The notes beneath the pieces are model-generated. The model did no database searches and was not told the origin of the DNA. It saw nothing but the letters and a program-made list of their open reading frames with translations. Below, one piece after another: positions 28,403-62,010 of a DNA stretch of 64,000 nt. Source of the DNA: Candidatus Poribacteria bacterium (GTDB lineage Bacteria > Poribacteria > WGA-4E > GCA-2687025); contig JAPPNK010000025.1 in NCBI GenBank assembly GCA_028818695.1, positions 62,001-126,000 on the forward strand, written 5' to 3'. Position 1 is the stretch's first letter, and every line of letters begins with the position of its first letter. A program made the translations under genes and the position numbers.

Positions 28403-29422
28403 TCAATCCGATTGCTCAGACGGTCGAGGAACAAGTTTCAGCGTTGGAAGAACGCCTTCGCCGACAAACTCGGCGTCGTCAATGTAGGGCGGGGCAGACA
28501 GGACCTCCACATCTTCCCCCTTCTCAGAACGAACGATGGAATCCCGCCATTTCTTGTATGCATTGCCTAAAAGATCAAACCGCGCCTCAAACCAAACATG
28601 CTTTGGGAACCAGTAAACCTTATTGGAAATCTTATTGGCATACTTAATGCCAAATTTTTTCTGGAGCTCTTGCTGCGTCATGTGCTTCCAAAGCGGATGT
28701 CCTGTAAGTCCGGGATTCTGAATCATTTTTCGCGTCGCTTTCCTTAAACTCTCTTCCATCGCATCATCGAGGTCGGAGGGCCGCTTACCAGGGTACCGTT
28801 GTTTAAACAGAGTCGCGCAGTAAGCCTTGCGAAAATCACGGAGTTGTTTGGAAAACGCAACGCATTCAGCGATGTTGACTCTCCCTTCAACGCTTACGCC
28901 GAGCGGATCGAAGAAAGGGGATAGGAAACATGTCACTTGCAATTCGAAGCAGCCCCCCGTTGACGACGCAATCCCTAAACTATGAGACGCCCGCACTCTG
29001 AAACTTATTCCTCCTCTGATGAAATCGCCGCCCATAAAGACGTCAGAGCGCCATGGTTCTTCTACAAGTTGAGCGACATGGGAGTCCAGAAATTCGGAAA
29101 GCTGGACCAACCCACCGGATGGAGCTATAAACGGCGCGGCTATTGGCGTCGGCTCCAGTAGTTGCCGTCCGCCAACCTCTTTGGCGCGATCCGCTGCCTT
29201 TAAAGCCCACCCTGCCGGATCGCAGCCAAGGGGGGGCCGCTCAACGTTTTCAGCTCGCCTTTCAGCGTCCAGCGCCGCAATAGACATGCTGCCATGAATG
29301 CACGGATAGCCGTCCAGACTCAACCTTTCGAATCGAAGAATCCATTCAAAACGGTGCGCTTGAAGAGCGACCTTATAGGGCGGCGCAATATCAAAATCGA
29401 GATTGTCTTTTTGCGTTCTCAA
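28403..29422 (-). CDS. Unknown protein, 339 residues
   Basis: I do not recognise a family. No signal peptide or membrane segment is visible. Residues 1-60 are strand-rich ([27 protein letters not shown]). The middle contains [20 protein letters not shown] and a cysteine-containing stretch ([19 protein letters not shown]). The C-terminal third is helical and basic ([34 protein letters not shown]). The start overlaps the end of the 107-residue gene upstream by four bases, so the two form a coupled pair. Base composition is visibly more A+T-rich than flanking housekeeping genes, and the pair sits between nuoB and rpmH with REP-like debris on both sides, consistent with acquisition. A role cannot be assigned. 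Confidence 0.65.
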
Positions 29423-29742
29423 ACTGCGGCTCCTTGAAGCCTAAGCCATTTTGTATACACCTTCTTTATGACGTCTTTGTCAACGCTGAACCATGCAGCG
29501 CAATCCTCAGAGGAAAGAAAGCTGCCATGACATATTGCCATGACCCCGTTGAGCGCTCCCGCGACACACGGATTCGAATCGTCAATCTCCGGCCATTTTT
29601 CAATGAGTTTATAAAGCATGTCTCGCTCCATACTTGCTCGGTACCTGAGTCCTCCCGTGTGAATAAAAGGGCCCTTAGCGATTGCGCACAAGCAAGCGAA
29701 AACGATCTTCTTTTCCTGGTGGGTCAGTTGTTCAAGGTACAT
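29419..29742 (-). CDS. Unknown small helical protein, 107 residues
   Basis: The ATG is preceded by AAGGAGGAACG, a strong ribosome site. The protein is predicted largely helical (LTHQEKKIVFACLCAIAKG, MLYKLIEKWPEID, KDVIKKVYTKWLRL) with five cysteines and a likely domain boundary at PEIDDSNPCVAGAL. No membrane segment or known DNA-binding signature stands out. It is the first gene of a two-gene unit. The arrangement (small protein, then a larger unknown coupled by ATGA) is seen in toxin-antitoxin and small accessory modules, but nothing in either sequence proves that. Confidence 0.65.
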   Translation of the reverse strand: MYLEQLTHQEKKIVFACLCAIAKGPFIHTGGLRYRASMERDMLYKLIEKWPEIDDSNPCVAGALNGVMAICHGSFLSSEDCAAWFSVDKDVIKKVYTKWLRLQGAAV

Positions 29743-30444: not shown

Positions 30445-30452
30445 GAATGAAC

Positions 30453-32288
30453 ATGCGCGCTCTTGAAAATTTATCGCGGCTCGTTCGGCGCAATTGCCTC
30501 GCTTCCACCACAAAGGCAGGCTCTGGACATCCCACAACAGCCCTTTCAGCGACCGACCTGATGGTGAATCTCATGTTCGGGGGGCATTTCAAAGCGGACC
30601 TGGACAATCCAGCCCATCCCAACAACGACCGCCTCGTCTTCTCAAAGGGGCATGCCGCGCCGCTGCTCTACGCCCTTTACCATGCCGCCGGCAAACTGAC
30701 CGACGACGAACTCATGAGCCTGCGCGAGTTCGGCAGCCCGCTGGAAGGACATCCGACGCTCGCCTTTCCCTACACCGAAGCTCCCACCGGCTCGCTAGGG
30801 CAGGGTCTCTCAATCGGTTTCGGCATCGCGCTGAACGCGAAAATTGACCAGTTGCCCTACCGCTCCTTTGTGCTGATGGGCGACAGCGAAACGGCGGAAG
30901 GCGCCGTCTGGGAAGCAATGGCTCTCGCCTCACATTACAAACTGGACAATCTCACCGCCGTTCTCGATGTCAACCGGTTTGGGCAGTGCGGCCCGACGAT
31001 GCTCGAACGTGACCTGGAAACCTATCGGCAACGCGCCGAGGCGTTCGGTTGGAGAACGTTTTTGCTGGACGGGCATTGCCATGAGGAGATCAACGCCGCC
31101 TATCAAGCCGCTTTAGAGGTTGAGGGCGGGCCCTCCATGCTCATCGCCAAAACGTTCAAGGGCAAGGGCGCTTCGCTTGTTGAAAACGAGGACAACTGGC
31201 ACGGCAAGCCGCTGTCGCAAGAGCAGTGCGAGCAGGCGATTCAAGAGCTGGGGAAGATTGACGACGCAGCCCGCGGCTCTGTACCGCTCCCCGCGGCTCT
31301 GGACGCGCCGAAGAGCGCGCCGAAGCCTGTAGAAACCGTCCAGTACCAGCTCGGAGACAGGGCGGCGACGCGGCAGGCGTACGGCAACGCGCTCGCCCGC
31401 ATCTATCCCGACCATCCGAATATCGTCGCGCTGGACGCCGAGACGAGCAACTCGACCTATGCGCAAACCTTCCAAAAAGGGTATCCCGACCGGTTTTTTG
31501 AAATGTATATCGCCGAGCAGAACATGGTCGGCGCGGCGATCGGTCTCTCTCGGCGCGGAAAGACGCCGTTTGTGTCCACCTTCGCCGCCTTTTTCTCCCG
31601 CGCGTTCGACCAGATACGCATGAGCCAGTACTCTGGCTGCAACATTAAGTACGTCGGCTCGCACGCGGGCGTCTCCATCGGCGAGGACGGAGCGTCGCAG
31701 ATGGGTCTGGAAGACATTGCGATGTTTAGAACGCTGCTCGACTCGGTCGTATTATACCCGTCCGATCCCGTTCAGACCGATCAGTTGGTGGAGCTGGCGG
31801 CGCGGCATGAGGGCAACGTGTATATGCGGACGACGCGGATGTCGACGCCTGTTCTCTACGATCCGAGCGAGACGTTCCGCATCGGCGGGAGCAAGACGCT
31901 GCGGAAGTCGGACGAGGACGCGGCGGCGCTCGTCGGGGCGGGCGTGACGCTCCATGAGGCGCTGAAGGCGGCGGACGCGCTCGCCGAGGAAGGCGTCCGC
32001 GTTCGCGTTATCGACCTTTACAGCGTCAAGCCGCTTGACAGGGAAACGCTGCTGAAAGCCGCGCGCGAGACGAAAGCGGTCATCGTGGCGGAGGACCATT
32101 TTGCGGAGGGCGGCATCGGCGAAGCGGTGCGCAGCGCTCTCGGCGAAGAGCTGGGAGCGGATTCCTGCCGCGTGATCTCGCTCGCTGTGCGCAAAATGCC
32201 GCAAAGCGGACCGCCCGACGAGCTGCTGGACTATGAAGGCATCTCGGCAGGGGCGATTGCCGCAACGGTGAGAGAGGCGGTTCTTTGA
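30453..32288 (+). CDS. tkt: Transketolase
   Basis: A 611-residue enzyme of the pentose-phosphate pathway, moving two-carbon units with thiamin diphosphate. The AGGA before 30447 would touch the ATG there, so the ATG at 30453 is preferred. Thiamin-PP domain: GSGHPTTALSATDLM, FSKGHAAPLLYAL, MGDSETAEGAVWEAMALAS, VLDVNRFGQ. Pyrimidine domain: MYIAEQNMVGAAIGLSRRG (activating Glu in IAEQNM) and FAAFFSRAFDQIRMSQ. The C-terminal domain has VRVIDLYSVKPLD and VIVAEDHFAEGGIG. The length and motif form match the shorter archaeal/vertebrate-like transketolases rather than the ~660-residue enterobacterial type. It is in one operon with rpmH. Confidence 0.94.
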   Translation: MRALENLSRLVRRNCLASTTKAGSGHPTTALSATDLMVNLMFGGHFKADLDNPAHPNNDRLVFSKGHAAPLLYALYHAAGKLTDDELMSLREFGSPLEGHPTLAFPYTEAPTGSLGQGLSIGFGIALNAKIDQLPYRSFVLMGDSETAEGAVWEAMALASHYKLDNLTAVLDVNRFGQCGPTMLERDLETYRQRAEAFGWRTFLLDGHCHEEINAAYQAALEVEGGPSMLIAKTFKGKGASLVENEDNWHGKPLSQEQCEQAIQELGKIDDAARGSVPLPAALDAPKSAPKPVETVQYQLGDRAATRQAYGNALARIYPDHPNIVALDAETSNSTYAQTFQKGYPDRFFEMYIAEQNMVGAAIGLSRRGKTPFVSTFAAFFSRAFDQIRMSQYSGCNIKYVGSHAGVSIGEDGASQMGLEDIAMFRTLLDSVVLYPSDPVQTDQLVELAARHEGNVYMRTTRMSTPVLYDPSETFRIGGSKTLRKSDEDAAALVGAGVTLHEALKAADALAEEGVRVRVIDLYSVKPLDRETLLKAARETKAVIVAEDHFAEGGIGEAVRSALGEELGADSCRVISLAVRKMPQSGPPDELLDYEGISAGAIAATVREAVL

Positions 32289-32307: not shown

Positions 32308-35300
32308 ATGGCGTCAGACTATGAGTTGATTCGTAAAGATCATCAGGATCGGTATGGGTGGGATATAAAGTCGCGCCGCATCTATAAGCGGCTTTACAGT
32401 GACAAGACGCATTTTGTTGATGAGCTCATCCAGAACGCCGACGACAGCGACAGCCTCGAGCTTGTGCTGCATCTGGATTCAGACGCGCTAACGGTTTGGA
32501 ATAACGGCCGACTGTTCGATGAAAAGGATGTACGCGGGATTTGCTCGCTTGGTTTAAGCGATAAGGATCTGACGCATATCGGCACATTTGGCATCGGCTT
32601 CAAATCGGTTTATAATTACACAGACTGCCCTGAAATTTATTCTGACGATGAGCGTTTTCGCATCCGCGATTTCGTTAAACCTGAGGGAATTCAAGAGACG
32701 CCGCCCGAAGTAGAGCAGTTGATTAAGGCCGGCAATACTGTCTTTCGGCTGCCTTTCAAAAACAGTCTTAAGTCGGGCGATGTTGACGGCTTGAAAAATC
32801 GGCTCTGCAATTTATCAAAAGAGCGGACTCTGTTGTTCCTTCGCCATCTTGAAAAGGTGGAATGGCTGGACAAGCGCAATGGGCAAAAAGGCGTTTATTC
32901 CTGTCACCGCCGTCCGTATGACAACATCCAGGATGTTCCAAAGAATGTGTCGGTTGAGCGCGTAGAATTGACCGCTTCGCTCAACGGCGGCGATCCGTCG
33001 TCCGAGAAATTCCTCGTTTTTTCTAAGAAAGCTCGCCCTCCAAAAGCCGTAATAGACTGGGCTTTGGAACAAGCAGAGGATAACGATGACCGACAACGTG
33101 TACAAAGGTCTAAGAAGGAGCCGCAGACGATTGAGGTCGCGTTCAAATTGGAGGAGGGCAAAATCGCCGCGATGGACGACGACAGCGCGCTCTTCGCCTA
33201 CCTTCCTACCCAGATGGTCACGCGCCTAAGATTCTTGATTCAGGCGCGGTATCAGACGACGCCCCCCCGCGACAATATTGCAAAACCGAAGGACAGCCGA
33301 TGGAACGAATGGCTGATTCAAGAAACCGCCGATCTTCTGCCCGAAACGCTGGAAATGTTAAAGACGGGCGGGTTGCTTGAGCCGGCATTCTTTAATGCGT
33401 TGCCTCTTCAGAAGGGGGATAATGAGGGGGATAATGTGCCTGAGGAGTTTGAGCGTATTGTCTGGGTGCTGGAAAAGGCGATGAAAGAGAGGGAGCTGGT
33501 CCCGACGCACCGCAAGGAGTATATGAAGGCGGAGAATGTGTTTTATCCCGACAGCCAGGGGTTGTGGGAGCTGTTAAATGACGCCGGTTGGCTGCCTCCA
33601 GAATGCGGTTGGCTTCATCCGGACATACAAGATAACAAAGCGTATCGACGAAGCTTCGAAACGATGCAGGCGGCCGGCGTCAAAACAGTCGGAATTGACA
33701 ATGCGTTGAGTTGGCTGAAGGAGCAGGACGCTGAATGGTTTGAAAAAAGACAGGATGACTGGATCCGCCGCTTATACGCCTATTTGGAAAAAAACGAATC
33801 CAAAATTGAGCGCGTTAAAACGCTCCCGCTGATTCGGCTTAAAAACGGGAAGCATGTATGCGCTGACAAAAAACTTGCGTTTTTTCTGCCGGACGCCGAA
33901 GAAGAGCGCGAAGGACTTAAGCCGTTCCTGAACGAACTGCCCATTTTACAAGCGTCTCTGCTGGACGGCGACCAGCATGGGAGGGTCAAGCTCTTTCTGA
34001 AGAATCTAGGGGTCCGGGAGCTGAAGCCCGAAAATGTGATCCGCGAATGGATTCTTCCCCTATATCCACAGTACAGCCAAGAGAAACCTTCCATAGAGCG
34101 AAACCGCCTACATATCCGGTATCTACGGGAGTTCTGGGATAAACTTTCCGGATATGAACATGGACAATTGAGGACAAAAGTCAGCGATACTCCGATCTTG
34201 CGCGCCTACAAGGGCGTCCAGCCGGAAGCCTTTGATTTTGTAAAGCCGTACAGCGTCTACTTGCCTGAGGCATATACGGGCGCCGCCGATTTGGAAACCT
34301 ATTTTGCGGCGGCGAACGACGATGTCTGGTTTGTAGACAGCTCATATATGAAGGGCGATTCCGAGCGGAAATCTTGGCTCTCGTTTTTGAAAAAGATGGG
34401 CGCAACTGACGCGCCTCGCGTGATAATAAAGCGGATCTATACAAGCGTTGGCAGAACGGATTTTGACAAAGAGCTTGCGAAGAGAAGCCTTAAATGGGCG
34501 GAAACTAATCGGCCAGATGAAGTGTTTATTGCGGACCGCGATATCCGCGCACTACAAACCATATTGTCTCATATTAAGGCGAACAAGGACATAAATCTCG
34601 CGCACGCCTTATGGAGCCTCTTAATAAACGCTTCTTCAAGATCGAATAATTACTTTCAAGGCACATATCATTGGCGGCCCCCTCATCATAGGTCTTTGGT
34701 CTTTACGGGATTTGAGGCAGACTTCTATAGTCAATTGAAAGAGACGCCATGGCTCCCTGACAAGCAGGACAATTTCCGTTGTCCATCCGAGCTCTTTGCG
34801 CCGACTTCGGAGAATAGCGATGTGTTGGGGGACAGCGTCGCTTATCTACACCCGGATTTTGACGTTAGCACAGGCAATGAAGACGCGCGTCGGCTAGCTG
34901 AAAAACTAGGGGCGCATTTGAATGCCCACACAGACAGCGTCCTCAAATACCTTGAATCCTTGAGCAAGAAGGACGCGGCGGAATCAAGCGTGGAGAAGGT
35001 TGAGCCAATCTACCGTTTTCTTGCCGAGGCCGTGCAGGACGAACCCCAAATCTATGAATTCTTCAAGGAAAATCGGCTCATCTTCACTTCCGACCCTGAG
35101 CCGCGCTGGTGGACATCTGATCAGGCGTTTTGGGAGGATCAAAGCGTCGTCTTCGGCAACCGCCGCGGTTATCTCAAAAATAATTACGCCCGTTATGAGC
35201 AAACGCTAAAGCCATTTTTCTTGGCCCTGGAAGTTTCGGATCGCGCCGAGTTCTCGGACTACGCCAGAGTCATTCGAGAGATTGCGTCTAAGGAACGAGC

Positions 35301-36666
35301 CGAGGACGATGAGGTTCGCGGTCGCGTTGAGACTCTTTACCGCCATATCATGCCGAACCTGCATAAAGGCAGCGAATCGATGGAGGATGAATGGGAACAA
35401 ATGCGCAGCGGCAAATGCTGGCTTGGCAAGAAAGGCGATACTTGGGACTTTTTCTCTTCGCAAGAATTGGTTTGGGAAGACGATAAGCATCGCTCGGAAC
35501 TTTTTGCGGGCAAAGTTCCGTTTTGGGCGTTTAACGACGATTTGTTGGTACTCGCAAAACGTCTGGAGATAAAAGGCTGCCGTCAGGCGTCGGTTGCCAA
35601 ATTTGACAAGGTCGGACCGCGACCAGAAGTCGAGACATGGTCTGAGGAGGCGCGCCTCCTGTACCCATACATCTATGACTTCCTCAATTCGCCGTGGCGG
35701 CGCCAAAGATACGATGAGGAAAAATCTGCTGAATTTCTAAAGCGGCTCTCGGTCTTCCGCGCCGAAAAGATAACGGCGAAATATGAACTGAACGGACTGA
35801 ACAAAGTTTCCGTTGACGACCCAAATCCGCGCCAAAGTTTCCTGGATAAAGAAAATAAGAGGCTCTGGTTAGGCGGCGCGAATGAGAGAGCGTATCTCGA
35901 CCTCATCGGCGACGCCTTGCAAGACTACTTCGGTGTCAGCGGACTCCGCGAGTTCGTCAAAGACTTGCTGACATCAGGCGGCGATGCTGTCCTGCCGAGA
36001 TGGGAACAGCGCGGCTTTGTGCCTAAACGTTGTTTGTCGTCTCCAGCCCCCACGCCAGACCCAGATACTGTGCCAGAACCGGATCCCACGCCAATACCTG
36101 TCCCCACACCTGAACTGGATCCCACGCCAATTCCTGTCCCCACACCTGAACTGGATCCCACGCCAATTCCTATCCCCATCCCGTCTAATGGAGGCAAACG
36201 GAATGGCGGCGGGACAGGACATGGCAGCGGACGATGGCATCAACATCAGCATGTAGGTGGAAGCGGCAGTGGTGGCGGTGGCGGCGGAGAAGGCGATGAC
36301 CATTGGAATTTAAAGATTTATCTGGCAAATAATCCCGCTCTACTTGGCCCAGGGTTAGTACGAGCCGGCATTGAGTATGAATTTGGGTCGGGCGACCACG
36401 TGGATATTTTACTGAAGGATCGTTTTGGAAATCCTGTGACCGTGGAAGTAAAAGCGTATCGTATTCCATCTACAAACCGTGATGAGATGTGGCAAGCCGT
36501 AAAATATAAGCATCTTGCCGCTGTTCAATTTGGTCGGGTGTGTAAAGATGTCCGCAGCATTCTTGCGGCGCCGTCGATTCCTGACGGTGTTAAGAGAGAA
36601 TGCAAGCGACGCGGAGTTGAGCCTTTCGAGATTCCTGAATCGATCATGAAGGAGGCATTAGGTTGA
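32308..36666 (+). CDS. Sacsin-type GHKL ATPase fused to NucS-like PD-(D/E)XK nuclease
   Basis: A 1452-residue cytoplasmic protein. Residues ~1-240 are a sacsin/HSP90-like GHKL ATPase: N-box FVDELIQNADDSD (36-48), VWNNGRLFDEKDVRGICSLG (63-82) and the lid HIGTFGIGFKSVYNYTD (90-106). A ~1000-residue middle has no recognised domain and is rich in W/F/K. Residues ~1250-1293 are a Pro-rich linker with tandem repeats (TPELDPTPIPVP), then a Gly/His-rich stretch. Residues ~1335-1452 form a nuclease fold: LKIYLANNPALL, D1366 in HVDILLKD, E1380-V-K1382 in VTVEVKAY, and a downstream helix with Q (MWQAVKYKHL). This arrangement, with an ATP-driven sensor-like part and a terminal nuclease, is typical of antiphage effectors. 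The stop overlaps the SDR start. Confidence 0.8.
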   Translation: MASDYELIRKDHQDRYGWDIKSRRIYKRLYSDKTHFVDELIQNADDSDSLELVLHLDSDALTVWNNGRLFDEKDVRGICSLGLSDKDLTHIGTFGIGFKSVYNYTDCPEIYSDDERFRIRDFVKPEGIQETPPEVEQLIKAGNTVFRLPFKNSLKSGDVDGLKNRLCNLSKERTLLFLRHLEKVEWLDKRNGQKGVYSCHRRPYDNIQDVPKNVSVERVELTASLNGGDPSSEKFLVFSKKARPPKAVIDWALEQAEDNDDRQRVQRSKKEPQTIEVAFKLEEGKIAAMDDDSALFAYLPTQMVTRLRFLIQARYQTTPPRDNIAKPKDSRWNEWLIQETADLLPETLEMLKTGGLLEPAFFNALPLQKGDNEGDNVPEEFERIVWVLEKAMKERELVPTHRKEYMKAENVFYPDSQGLWELLNDAGWLPPECGWLHPDIQDNKAYRRSFETMQAAGVKTVGIDNALSWLKEQDAEWFEKRQDDWIRRLYAYLEKNESKIERVKTLPLIRLKNGKHVCADKKLAFFLPDAEEEREGLKPFLNELPILQASLLDGDQHGRVKLFLKNLGVRELKPENVIREWILPLYPQYSQEKPSIERNRLHIRYLREFWDKLSGYEHGQLRTKVSDTPILRAYKGVQPEAFDFVKPYSVYLPEAYTGAADLETYFAAANDDVWFVDSSYMKGDSERKSWLSFLKKMGATDAPRVIIKRIYTSVGRTDFDKELAKRSLKWAETNRPDEVFIADRDIRALQTILSHIKANKDINLAHALWSLLINASSRSNNYFQGTYHWRPPHHRSLVFTGFEADFYSQLKETPWLPDKQDNFRCPSELFAPTSENSDVLGDSVAYLHPDFDVSTGNEDARRLAEKLGAHLNAHTDSVLKYLESLSKKDAAESSVEKVEPIYRFLAEAVQDEPQIYEFFKENRLIFTSDPEPRWWTSDQAFWEDQSVVFGNRRGYLKNNYARYEQTLKPFFLALEVSDRAEFSDYARVIREIASKERAEDDEVRGRVETLYRHIMPNLHKGSESMEDEWEQMRSGKCWLGKKGDTWDFFSSQELVWEDDKHRSELFAGKVPFWAFNDDLLVLAKRLEIKGCRQASVAKFDKVGPRPEVETWSEEARLLYPYIYDFLNSPWRRQRYDEEKSAEFLKRLSVFRAEKITAKYELNGLNKVSVDDPNPRQSFLDKENKRLWLGGANERAYLDLIGDALQDYFGVSGLREFVKDLLTSGGDAVLPRWEQRGFVPKRCLSSPAPTPDPDTVPEPDPTPIPVPTPELDPTPIPVPTPELDPTPIPIPIPSNGGKRNGGGTGHGSGRWHQHQHVGGSGSGGGGGGEGDDHWNLKIYLANNPALLGPGLVRAGIEYEFGSGDHVDILLKDRFGNPVTVEVKAYRIPSTNRDEMWQAVKYKHLAAVQFGRVCKDVRSILAAPSIPDGVKRECKRRGVEPFEIPESIMKEALG
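36084..36180 (+). repeat. 36-base tandem repeats coding a Pro-rich linker
   Basis: A 36-base unit (containing CCCACGCCAATTCCTGTCC) occurs about 2.5 times in frame, giving repeats of PTPELDPTPIPV. Array length could vary between strains without shifting frame. Confidence 0.8.
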
Positions 36667-61164: not shown

Positions 61165-62010
61165 CTATCTCCTGAGCCATTCTAGCAATTCTTGCAGGCT
61201 GGGTTCAACGCGGTCATATGAGATGCCGTTTTCTCTGCAAAACTCGCGTATGATTGGCAAAAACCTGTTAGCATATCGTTCCGTTTTCCAGGGCCCGATC
61301 CTATCGATTTCTAAAAATTCTTCTTCTGTTTGCGGGAGATAAATCGCCATCTGCTTCAGTGTTCTGTCCCAAAAAACTTGAAACGCATCGACCTTCTCCT
61401 CAGCGGCAATCCGATTGCGCTCATCCTTTAGCAGTTCGTACAGCCTGGGAGCGTACTCGCTTGGGTCTGCGTACTGCTGCCCTTTGGCGACGGAGATAGC
61501 AGGCGGATGTCCTTGCTTCTCACAGTAGTCTTTAATAATTTTCAGAAATATATCGGCGTACCTTTCAGTTTTCACTGGACCAATGCCATGAATTTGTCTG
61601 AATTCTGCTTCGGTTTGCGGTAGCAGGCTGGACATTTCTCTCAGTATTCTGTGAGTAAATATCCCTCCCCCCTCCTTTTTTGCCAACTCACGATTCTTTT
61701 CGAGAAGGAGGTCGTAAAGTTTGGGATGTTTCATATTCTGATCTCCAAAGGTCTGTTTGTTGCTTATGATATTGCGCTCCTCACAGTATTGGCGAATCGC
61801 GTCTAAAAACTCATCAACATACCGCTCCGCCATTGGGGCGGAGGTACCCCAAATCCGCAGAAACTCTTCTCTGTCTCGGGGTCTATTTTCCGCCATCTCC
61901 TGCAGCGCGCGGTCTAAGAATACCTGATATTGCATAATCCCGTCTCTCTCGGCGATTGCTCTCCGCATTTCTCTCAGATATTCATACAGCTCTGCAGACA
62001 TATTAGGCAT
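61165..62010 (-). CDS. Protein consisting of three HRDC domains
   Basis: A 281-residue protein in which the same ~70-residue fold occurs three times: about residues 5-80, 96-165 and 188-260. Repeats 2 and 3 are the clearest: LYDLLLEKNRELAKKEG..ILREMSSLLPQTEAEFRQI-HGIGPVKTERYADIF and LYELLKDERNRIAAEEK..TLKQMAIYLPQTEEEFLEI-DRIGPWKTERYANRF. HRDC domains bind single-stranded or forked DNA and are usually single C-terminal modules of RecQ helicases and RNase D; a stand-alone triple array is unusual. The start overlaps the DNA methyltransferase stop by 8 bases. There is no nuclease or helicase motif. Confidence 0.8.
   Translation of the reverse strand: MPNMSAELYEYLREMRRAIAERDGIMQYQVFLDRALQEMAENRPRDREEFLRIWGTSAPMAERYVDEFLDAIRQYCEERNIISNKQTFGDQNMKHPKLYDLLLEKNRELAKKEGGGIFTHRILREMSSLLPQTEAEFRQIHGIGPVKTERYADIFLKIIKDYCEKQGHPPAISVAKGQQYADPSEYAPRLYELLKDERNRIAAEEKVDAFQVFWDRTLKQMAIYLPQTEEEFLEIDRIGPWKTERYANRFLPIIREFCRENGISYDRVEPSLQELLEWLRR

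Follow-up and report, generated by a model that had tools for sequence, protein, structure and literature searches.

Genes and features at the locus

We analysed a 64,000-nucleotide stretch of DNA from a Candidatus Poribacteria bacterium (the window; positions 62,001 to 126,000 of contig JAPPNK010000025.1), with a focus on an intact open reading frame (ORF) at 32308-36666 on the + strand, which starts with ATG and encodes a protein of 1452 residues. In this protein a sacsin-like GHKL ATPase is joined to a predicted NucS-type PD-(D/E)XK nuclease, a combination for which a role in defence is likely. A reading of the letters alone, hereafter the sequence-only reading, had placed the gene between tkt and an SDR gene, as is indeed the case: tkt (30447-32288) ends 19 bases before the ATG, and the stop shares 4 bases with the start of the SDR gene, whose start codon is TTG. 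Both the GC content of the gene (0.512, against a window mean of 0.595, standard deviation (SD) 0.040) and that of its third codon positions (GC3; 0.562 against 0.690, SD 0.074) lie below the window means and are thus consistent with acquisition from elsewhere. It is the only sacsin-NucS gene in its genome, and none of five family relatives holds a full-length homologue, with a short match to the sacsin head alone in one of them (G002). As the SDR orthologue never adjoins tkt in these five genomes, they provide no clean empty site for comparison. The features of the gene, in window coordinates, are as follows.

32308..36666, +: whole gene, 1452 residues, sacsin-like GHKL ATPase and NucS-type PD-(D/E)XK nuclease (ORF, Pfam, PADLOC)
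32413..32907, +: GHKL (Bergerat-fold) ATPase domain, residues 36-200 (Pfam SACS; sacsin SR1 fold match)
32422..32445, +: N-box E39-xxx-N43-xx-D46 (invariant in 12 close homologues and 34 diverse relatives)
32581..32598, +: ATP-lid glycine motif G92-xx-G95-x-G97 (invariant in the 34 diverse relatives)
32905..33477, +: transducer/middle region of Hsp90-like type, residues 200-390; R321 invariant (Hsp90, MORC and GyrB alignments)
33481..33732, +: repeat R1, residues 392-475 (profile-profile R1-R4 E=1.3e-10, R1-R2 E=1.1e-5)
33814..34047, +: repeat R2, residues 503-580 (R2-R3 E=1e-5, R2-R4 E=1.4e-5)
34174..34422, +: repeat R3, residues 623-705 (R3-R4 E=4e-5)
34735..34962, +: repeat R4, residues 810-885 (profile-profile matches to R1, R2 and R3)
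35050..35307, +: weaker repeat R5, residues 915-1000 (R4-R5 E=3e-4)
35395..35592, +: weaker repeat R6, residues 1030-1095 (R4-R6 E=5e-4)
36040..36297, +: linker, Pro-rich then Gly-rich, residues 1245-1330 (sequence)
36076..36178, +: 36-base tandem repeat, 2.9 copies, 95% match (sequence)
36301..36627, +: NucS-type PD-(D/E)XK nuclease domain, residues 1332-1440 (Pfam, AlphaFold model, fold match)
36403..36405, +: catalytic D1366 (invariant in alignment A2)
36445..36453, +: E1380-x-K1382 (E1380 never varies in A2; several homologues have E at the K1382 position)
36493..36495, +: Q1396 (invariant)

A sacsin-like head and a repetitive body

The head matches Pfam SACS at residues 30-119 (E=5.8e-18), is recognised by NCBIfam as a sacsin ATP-binding domain, and retains every element of the ATP site, with the N-box (E39, N43, D46), D74 and the glycines G92, G95 and G97 at the residues where the sequence-only reading had located an intact sacsin/HSP90-like site. 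Its closest relative is the SR1 region of human and lizard sacsin (phmmer E=4e-6; profile E=6e-19), which also shares its fold (Z=14.9 over 166 residues, root-mean-square deviation (rmsd) 3.0). Hsp90, MORC and GyrB align with the head as well, and because these alignments extend to residues 350-460, the transducer/middle region that follows is Hsp90-like. We considered membership of the MORC family and rejected it, given that sacsin SR1 ranks first by both sequence and fold, with MORC at a Z of about 13 over a longer stretch.

To the sequence-only reading, the roughly 1,000 residues beyond the head had no recognisable domain, a description that no longer holds. Besides the transducer/middle region, the middle of the protein contains tandem repeats about 80 residues long, at least four and probably six in number, found by cutting the body into segments and comparing these profile against profile. 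The repeats were faint with the 12 close homologues alone, and R1-R4 became clear once distant ones were added; their mutual matches are in register, run over nearly the whole length and reach E=1e-4 to 1e-10, whereas control segments from the ATPase part gave E≥0.006. Foldseek and VIA matches for the core are taken up by its GHKL part. Tandem repeats had also been noted in the linker, and those at 36076-36178 are real, but confined to the window copy, the low-complexity linker of its relatives being different.

A NucS-type nuclease tail

The C-terminal PD-(D/E)XK core proposed from the sequence is borne out, with D1366, E1380 and K1382 numbered as before. Pfam NucS_C matches residues 1337-1440 (E=3e-5, score 24.4 against a gathering threshold of 24), and an AlphaFold model of residues 1310-1452, in which the blocks of the tail mostly have a predicted local distance difference test (pLDDT) score of 96-98, matches the EndoMS-DNA complex (5gke; Foldseek E=2e-8, 1.8 A) and EndoMS/NucS (Z=16.3, 120 residues, rmsd 3.0). 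Can2/Card1 and restriction-enzyme folds score lower (Z 8-11). The predicted fold carries the D, E-x-K and Q residues, so that the suspicion of a C-terminal fold devoid of a nuclease site can be set aside, and DNA cleavage by the tail is likely. Similarity to NucS is restricted to this catalytic part: NCBIfam NucS models cover only residues 1334-1439, with scores of 34.5 and 16.5 against cut-offs of 216 and 252, the protein as a whole does not match the NucS equivalog model, and neither Pfam nor NCBIfam finds the NucS N-terminal domain in it.

Homologous tails have either K or E at the position of K1382. Both types are kept by selection, because the ratio of nonsynonymous to synonymous substitution rates (dN/dS) of the tail is about 0.10-0.19 in most pairs, including 0.13-0.19 between E-type tails; for the pair L038-L041 (L denotes a locus record, G a genome) it is 0.32, in a very close pair with a dS of only 0.09.

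Patchy distribution and a Poribacteria hotspot

Homologues were sought in 145 related genomes, a patchy set of which has relatives of full or nearly full length at 44-54% identity. Named records identify these as Candidatus Poribacteria. In an alignment-based scan of genome contigs, where a scan with the single sequence had found nothing, the NucS-type tail proved conserved within Poribacteria and beyond, in Latescibacteria (48%), Armatimonadetes (35%) and Nitrospinae (27%). Rather than being vertically inherited in non-defence settings, an outcome that would have spoken for another role, the homologues are scattered and found in the company of defence genes.

In one genus of Poribacteria (38 genomes), the gene recurs at a hotspot flanked by a gene for a putative GH32-type enzyme and an oxidoreductase-like gene, the latter present in almost all members. 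The gene occupies this site in 11 of the 38 genomes, and elsewhere the same flanks enclose other cargo or none. Alternative cargo comprises a HindVP restriction enzyme with a cytosine methyltransferase, PIN/antitoxin-like genes, and PDC-M56A/B, an AAA ATPase/partner pair that is a candidate for defence (PADLOC E=6e-158 and 5e-45). The latter pair, an AAA ATPase plus a small partner, is itself a recurrent cargo (L031:3158-4767 and equivalents at other hotspot loci) and lies next to a NUDIX-like gene and one for an M90/ATLF-like putative metallopeptidase, two genes that are hardly ever missing. In another genome (L167 of G038; G038:C68:11280-11390), a 37-residue remnant of a NucS tail, from a decayed copy, lies beside HindVP-Dcm.

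The cytosine methyltransferase is found in 14 genomes of the genus, and HindVP in seven, always together with the methyltransferase. Where the methyltransferase occurs without HindVP, the sacsin-NucS gene is adjacent at six of seven loci, compared with 3 of 24 genomes that have neither (Fisher p=0.0007, for sequences that are not independent). In four of these six loci the two genes, on the same strand, are separated by 9 bp, and the orphan methyltransferases have stayed intact, sharing 87-95% identity with those linked to HindVP.

Other contexts also involve defence genes or mobile elements. In an Armatimonadetes record (L085), the homologue is second in the order HmaA, homologue, HmaB, SLFN/AlbA, HmaC, with gaps of 3 and 29 bp, and two copies (L044 and L084) are broken by transposase-like genes. 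More distant sacsin-like proteins adjoin helicase genes on two plasmids, one archaeal and the other a conjugative plasmid of Ensifer, and one in a poribacterium (L046) adjoins a DrmD-like SNF2 helicase. The latter protein (L046:7077-13818; 1208 residues, 30% identical, no nuclease tail recognised) stands in tandem with its helicase, and such pairs, also on plasmids (L178, L179), may form a two-gene defence unit.

Exchange of tails between cores

The tails have been exchanged between cores. In L035 (G027) the same core ends in a NOV_C/DUF3883 tail (E=6e-24); in the core tree its sister, with support of 100/100, is the NucS-tailed L036. At the nucleotide level, L041 and L043 share 95-97% identity over residues 14-315 but drop to 55-74% at the tail, L041 and L038 show the reverse (core 55-80%, tail 96%), and L036 and L031 likewise share 53-80% in the core and 87-89% over the last 150 residues. 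The three tail types, EVKPP, EVKPY and EVE-GF, cut across the core tree. Such a mosaic is what one expects if the tails are effector cassettes traded by recombination. Separately, a free-standing NOV_C (DUF3883) fragment, which has a linker of its own, lies beside HindVP-Dcm in L038 (8169-8780), apparently the severed tail of an earlier sacsin-like gene.

Interpretation and alternative explanations

The neighbourhoods, the pattern of gain and loss, the shuffling of tails and the nuclease fold together make a defence role likely, in keeping with the ATPase-nuclease reading proposed at the outset. On the basis of sequence comparison and modelling, we consider it probable that this one gene makes up a whole anti-phage system, its product being an ATP-gated nuclease that belongs to the broad sacsin-like/TmtA kind. 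What the computations show directly is the ATP site, the repeats, the nuclease fold with its site residues, the defence neighbourhoods, the gain and loss and the tail shuffling; from them we infer the cue, the control by ATP, the DNA target and the outcome, be it phage clearance or abortive infection. The Hsp90-like head and the repeat body would probably sense an invader-related cue and shift shape or dimerise with ATP, upon which the NucS-type domain, on its flexible Pro/Gly linker and as an exchangeable effector cassette, would cut DNA; where a DNA methyltransferase lies next to the gene, methylation may mark self DNA.

Several observations weigh against this reading. The window copy stands by itself, no defence gene having been recognised in its flanks, and the single C5 methyltransferase of its genome sits on another contig. 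The hotspot counts share ancestry, the model of the 1200-residue core reaches a pLDDT of only 76 and a predicted template modelling (pTM) score of only 0.50, and the TmtA label is weak, as TmtA models match all 34 diverse sacsin-like proteins (E≤1e-20). Finally, K1382 is E in 5 of 14 close homologues (L033, L034, L042, L043 and L045), and L084 and L113 read E-x-E as well. Some members of the family, at least, could accordingly have a tail that binds DNA and does not cut it, which we consider quite improbable: D1366, E1380 and Q1396 vary little or not at all, purifying selection acts on E-type tails as well, the window copy has K1382, and some genuine PD-(D/E)XK enzymes, BamHI among them, have E where others have K.

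Among broader alternatives, the strongest, though still rather unlikely, is an abortive-infection effector, whose nuclease would be freed by a phage protein or stress and degrade host and phage DNA or RNA. Exchangeable tails and a solitary gene suit such a sensor-effector toxin, and in known relatives sacsin/Hsp90-like heads act as machines that bind proteins, but the structures nearest to the tail are DNA endonucleases. Less likely is a two-gene unit in which the protein would carry out ATP-dependent restriction, cutting DNA that lacks its partner's methylation, with the window copy having lost its partner or using one elsewhere. The closely spaced, same-strand methyltransferases at the hotspot, their intactness and similarity to HindVP-linked ones, and the HmaB methylase of the Armatimonadetes operon fit this idea; however, the methyltransferase is absent from the stretches read of the window copy, L033, L034, L037, L041 and L045, the association within the genus comes from one syntenic hotspot, HindVP is retained too at three loci, and in G049 an orphan methyltransferase occurs without the sacsin-NucS gene. 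Equally doubtful is the fuller version, in which the fusion and the adjacent orphan C5 methyltransferase would form a methylation-discriminating, ATP-driven restriction system that displaced HindVP and swaps its tail to evade phage counter-measures. A housekeeping DNA repair or chaperone factor, a single chain in which a MutL-like GHKL ATPase would drive NucS-like mismatch repair, has a logical parallel in the pairing of such an ATPase with a NucS-type nuclease and would agree with the low dN/dS of the tail. We rejected it as extremely unlikely in view of the patchy presence, the copies broken by insertion sequences, the defence neighbours, the replacement of the tail by NOV_C in a sister core and a NucS N-terminal domain that Pfam and NCBIfam did not match.

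An anti-phage nuclease remains our favoured reading, and it bears on a larger group, as sacsin-like GHKL proteins occur widely among prokaryotes and count sacsin and plant NO VEIN as their eukaryotic cousins. What the head senses, and whether the tail decides the outcome, are directly testable in the NucS-tailed branch, because its separable tail, natural tail swaps, K/E variants and recurring methyltransferase partner together make it tractable.

Other genes in the window

Two overlapping ORFs on the - strand (28403-29422 and 29419-29742; 339 and 107 residues, GC 0.52) match no family in a Pfam scan of 28403-29742; the 339-residue protein has several paralogues in the window genome (contigs C35, C28, C16 and C29) and none in the five family relatives. 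The ORF at 61165-62010 (-) has the lowest GC of the window (0.473; GC3 0.518) and is possibly a recent acquisition.

Comparison with known systems

Tiamat (TmtA) is reportedly a single-gene system in PADLOC and DefenseFinder, said to go back to Millman et al. 2022. Both PMC12926258 and PMC10482375 give its mechanism as unknown. The best PADLOC TmtA model, PDLC03972, matches the window protein at residues 25-925 (E=1.9e-118), PDLC03968 spans residues 23-1204, and seven TmtA models match at E≤2e-34. Judging from these models, Tiamat shares the large size, the sacsin-like GHKL head and the long body, although the two top models each leave their last 270-400 positions unmatched in the best stretch. 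Because all 34 diverse sacsin-like proteins match TmtA models, we downgraded the match as an identification of Tiamat and take the label as membership of a broad class.

All of these 34 proteins carry SACS, 20 carry NOV_C, four AAA/SF1-helicase domains and one HNH, and the window protein alone has NucS_C (at E≤0.001). The sacsin-like NOV_C/DUF3883 proteins resemble it in the SACS head, the long body and a C-terminal PD-(D/E)XK-type domain, but that domain belongs to the NOV_C rather than the NucS_C family, even where, as in L035, it follows the same core; DUF3883 has been called a novel restriction endonuclease (REase) domain, and sacsin discussed as a chaperone (PMC3710099). EndoMS/NucS has the same catalytic-domain fold and D, E-x-K and Q residues, whereas its N-terminal DNA-binding domain is unmatched here, a GHKL ATPase and repeats standing in its place.

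Restriction-modification operons are known to include GHKL ATPases of the MORC type (Iyer et al. 2008, PMC2292703), and MORC/MutL-type operons likewise combine GHKL ATPases with methylases and RE-fold nucleases; the present family differs in being sacsin-like, in having its nuclease in cis and in lacking a helicase at most loci. As to type II restriction-modification, the window flanks yielded no cognate methyltransferase. Hma is linked to the family by the Armatimonadetes homologue between hmaA and hmaB, but a TmtA-like gene is not among the three Hma genes, most homologues lack Hma neighbours, and hmaA, hmaB and hmaC do not adjoin the window gene. We found no paper on a sacsin-NucS fusion in the literature searched, whose coverage of recent sacsin-type defence nucleases is sparse. 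The novelty claimed by the sequence-only reading needs to be narrowed: TmtA models match the core and NOV_C tails are common (20 of 33 distant relatives), while the NucS-type tail is indeed unusual. By these sequence comparisons, GHKL-nuclease fusions are already known, and what sets the window protein apart is its rare, predicted NucS-type effector.

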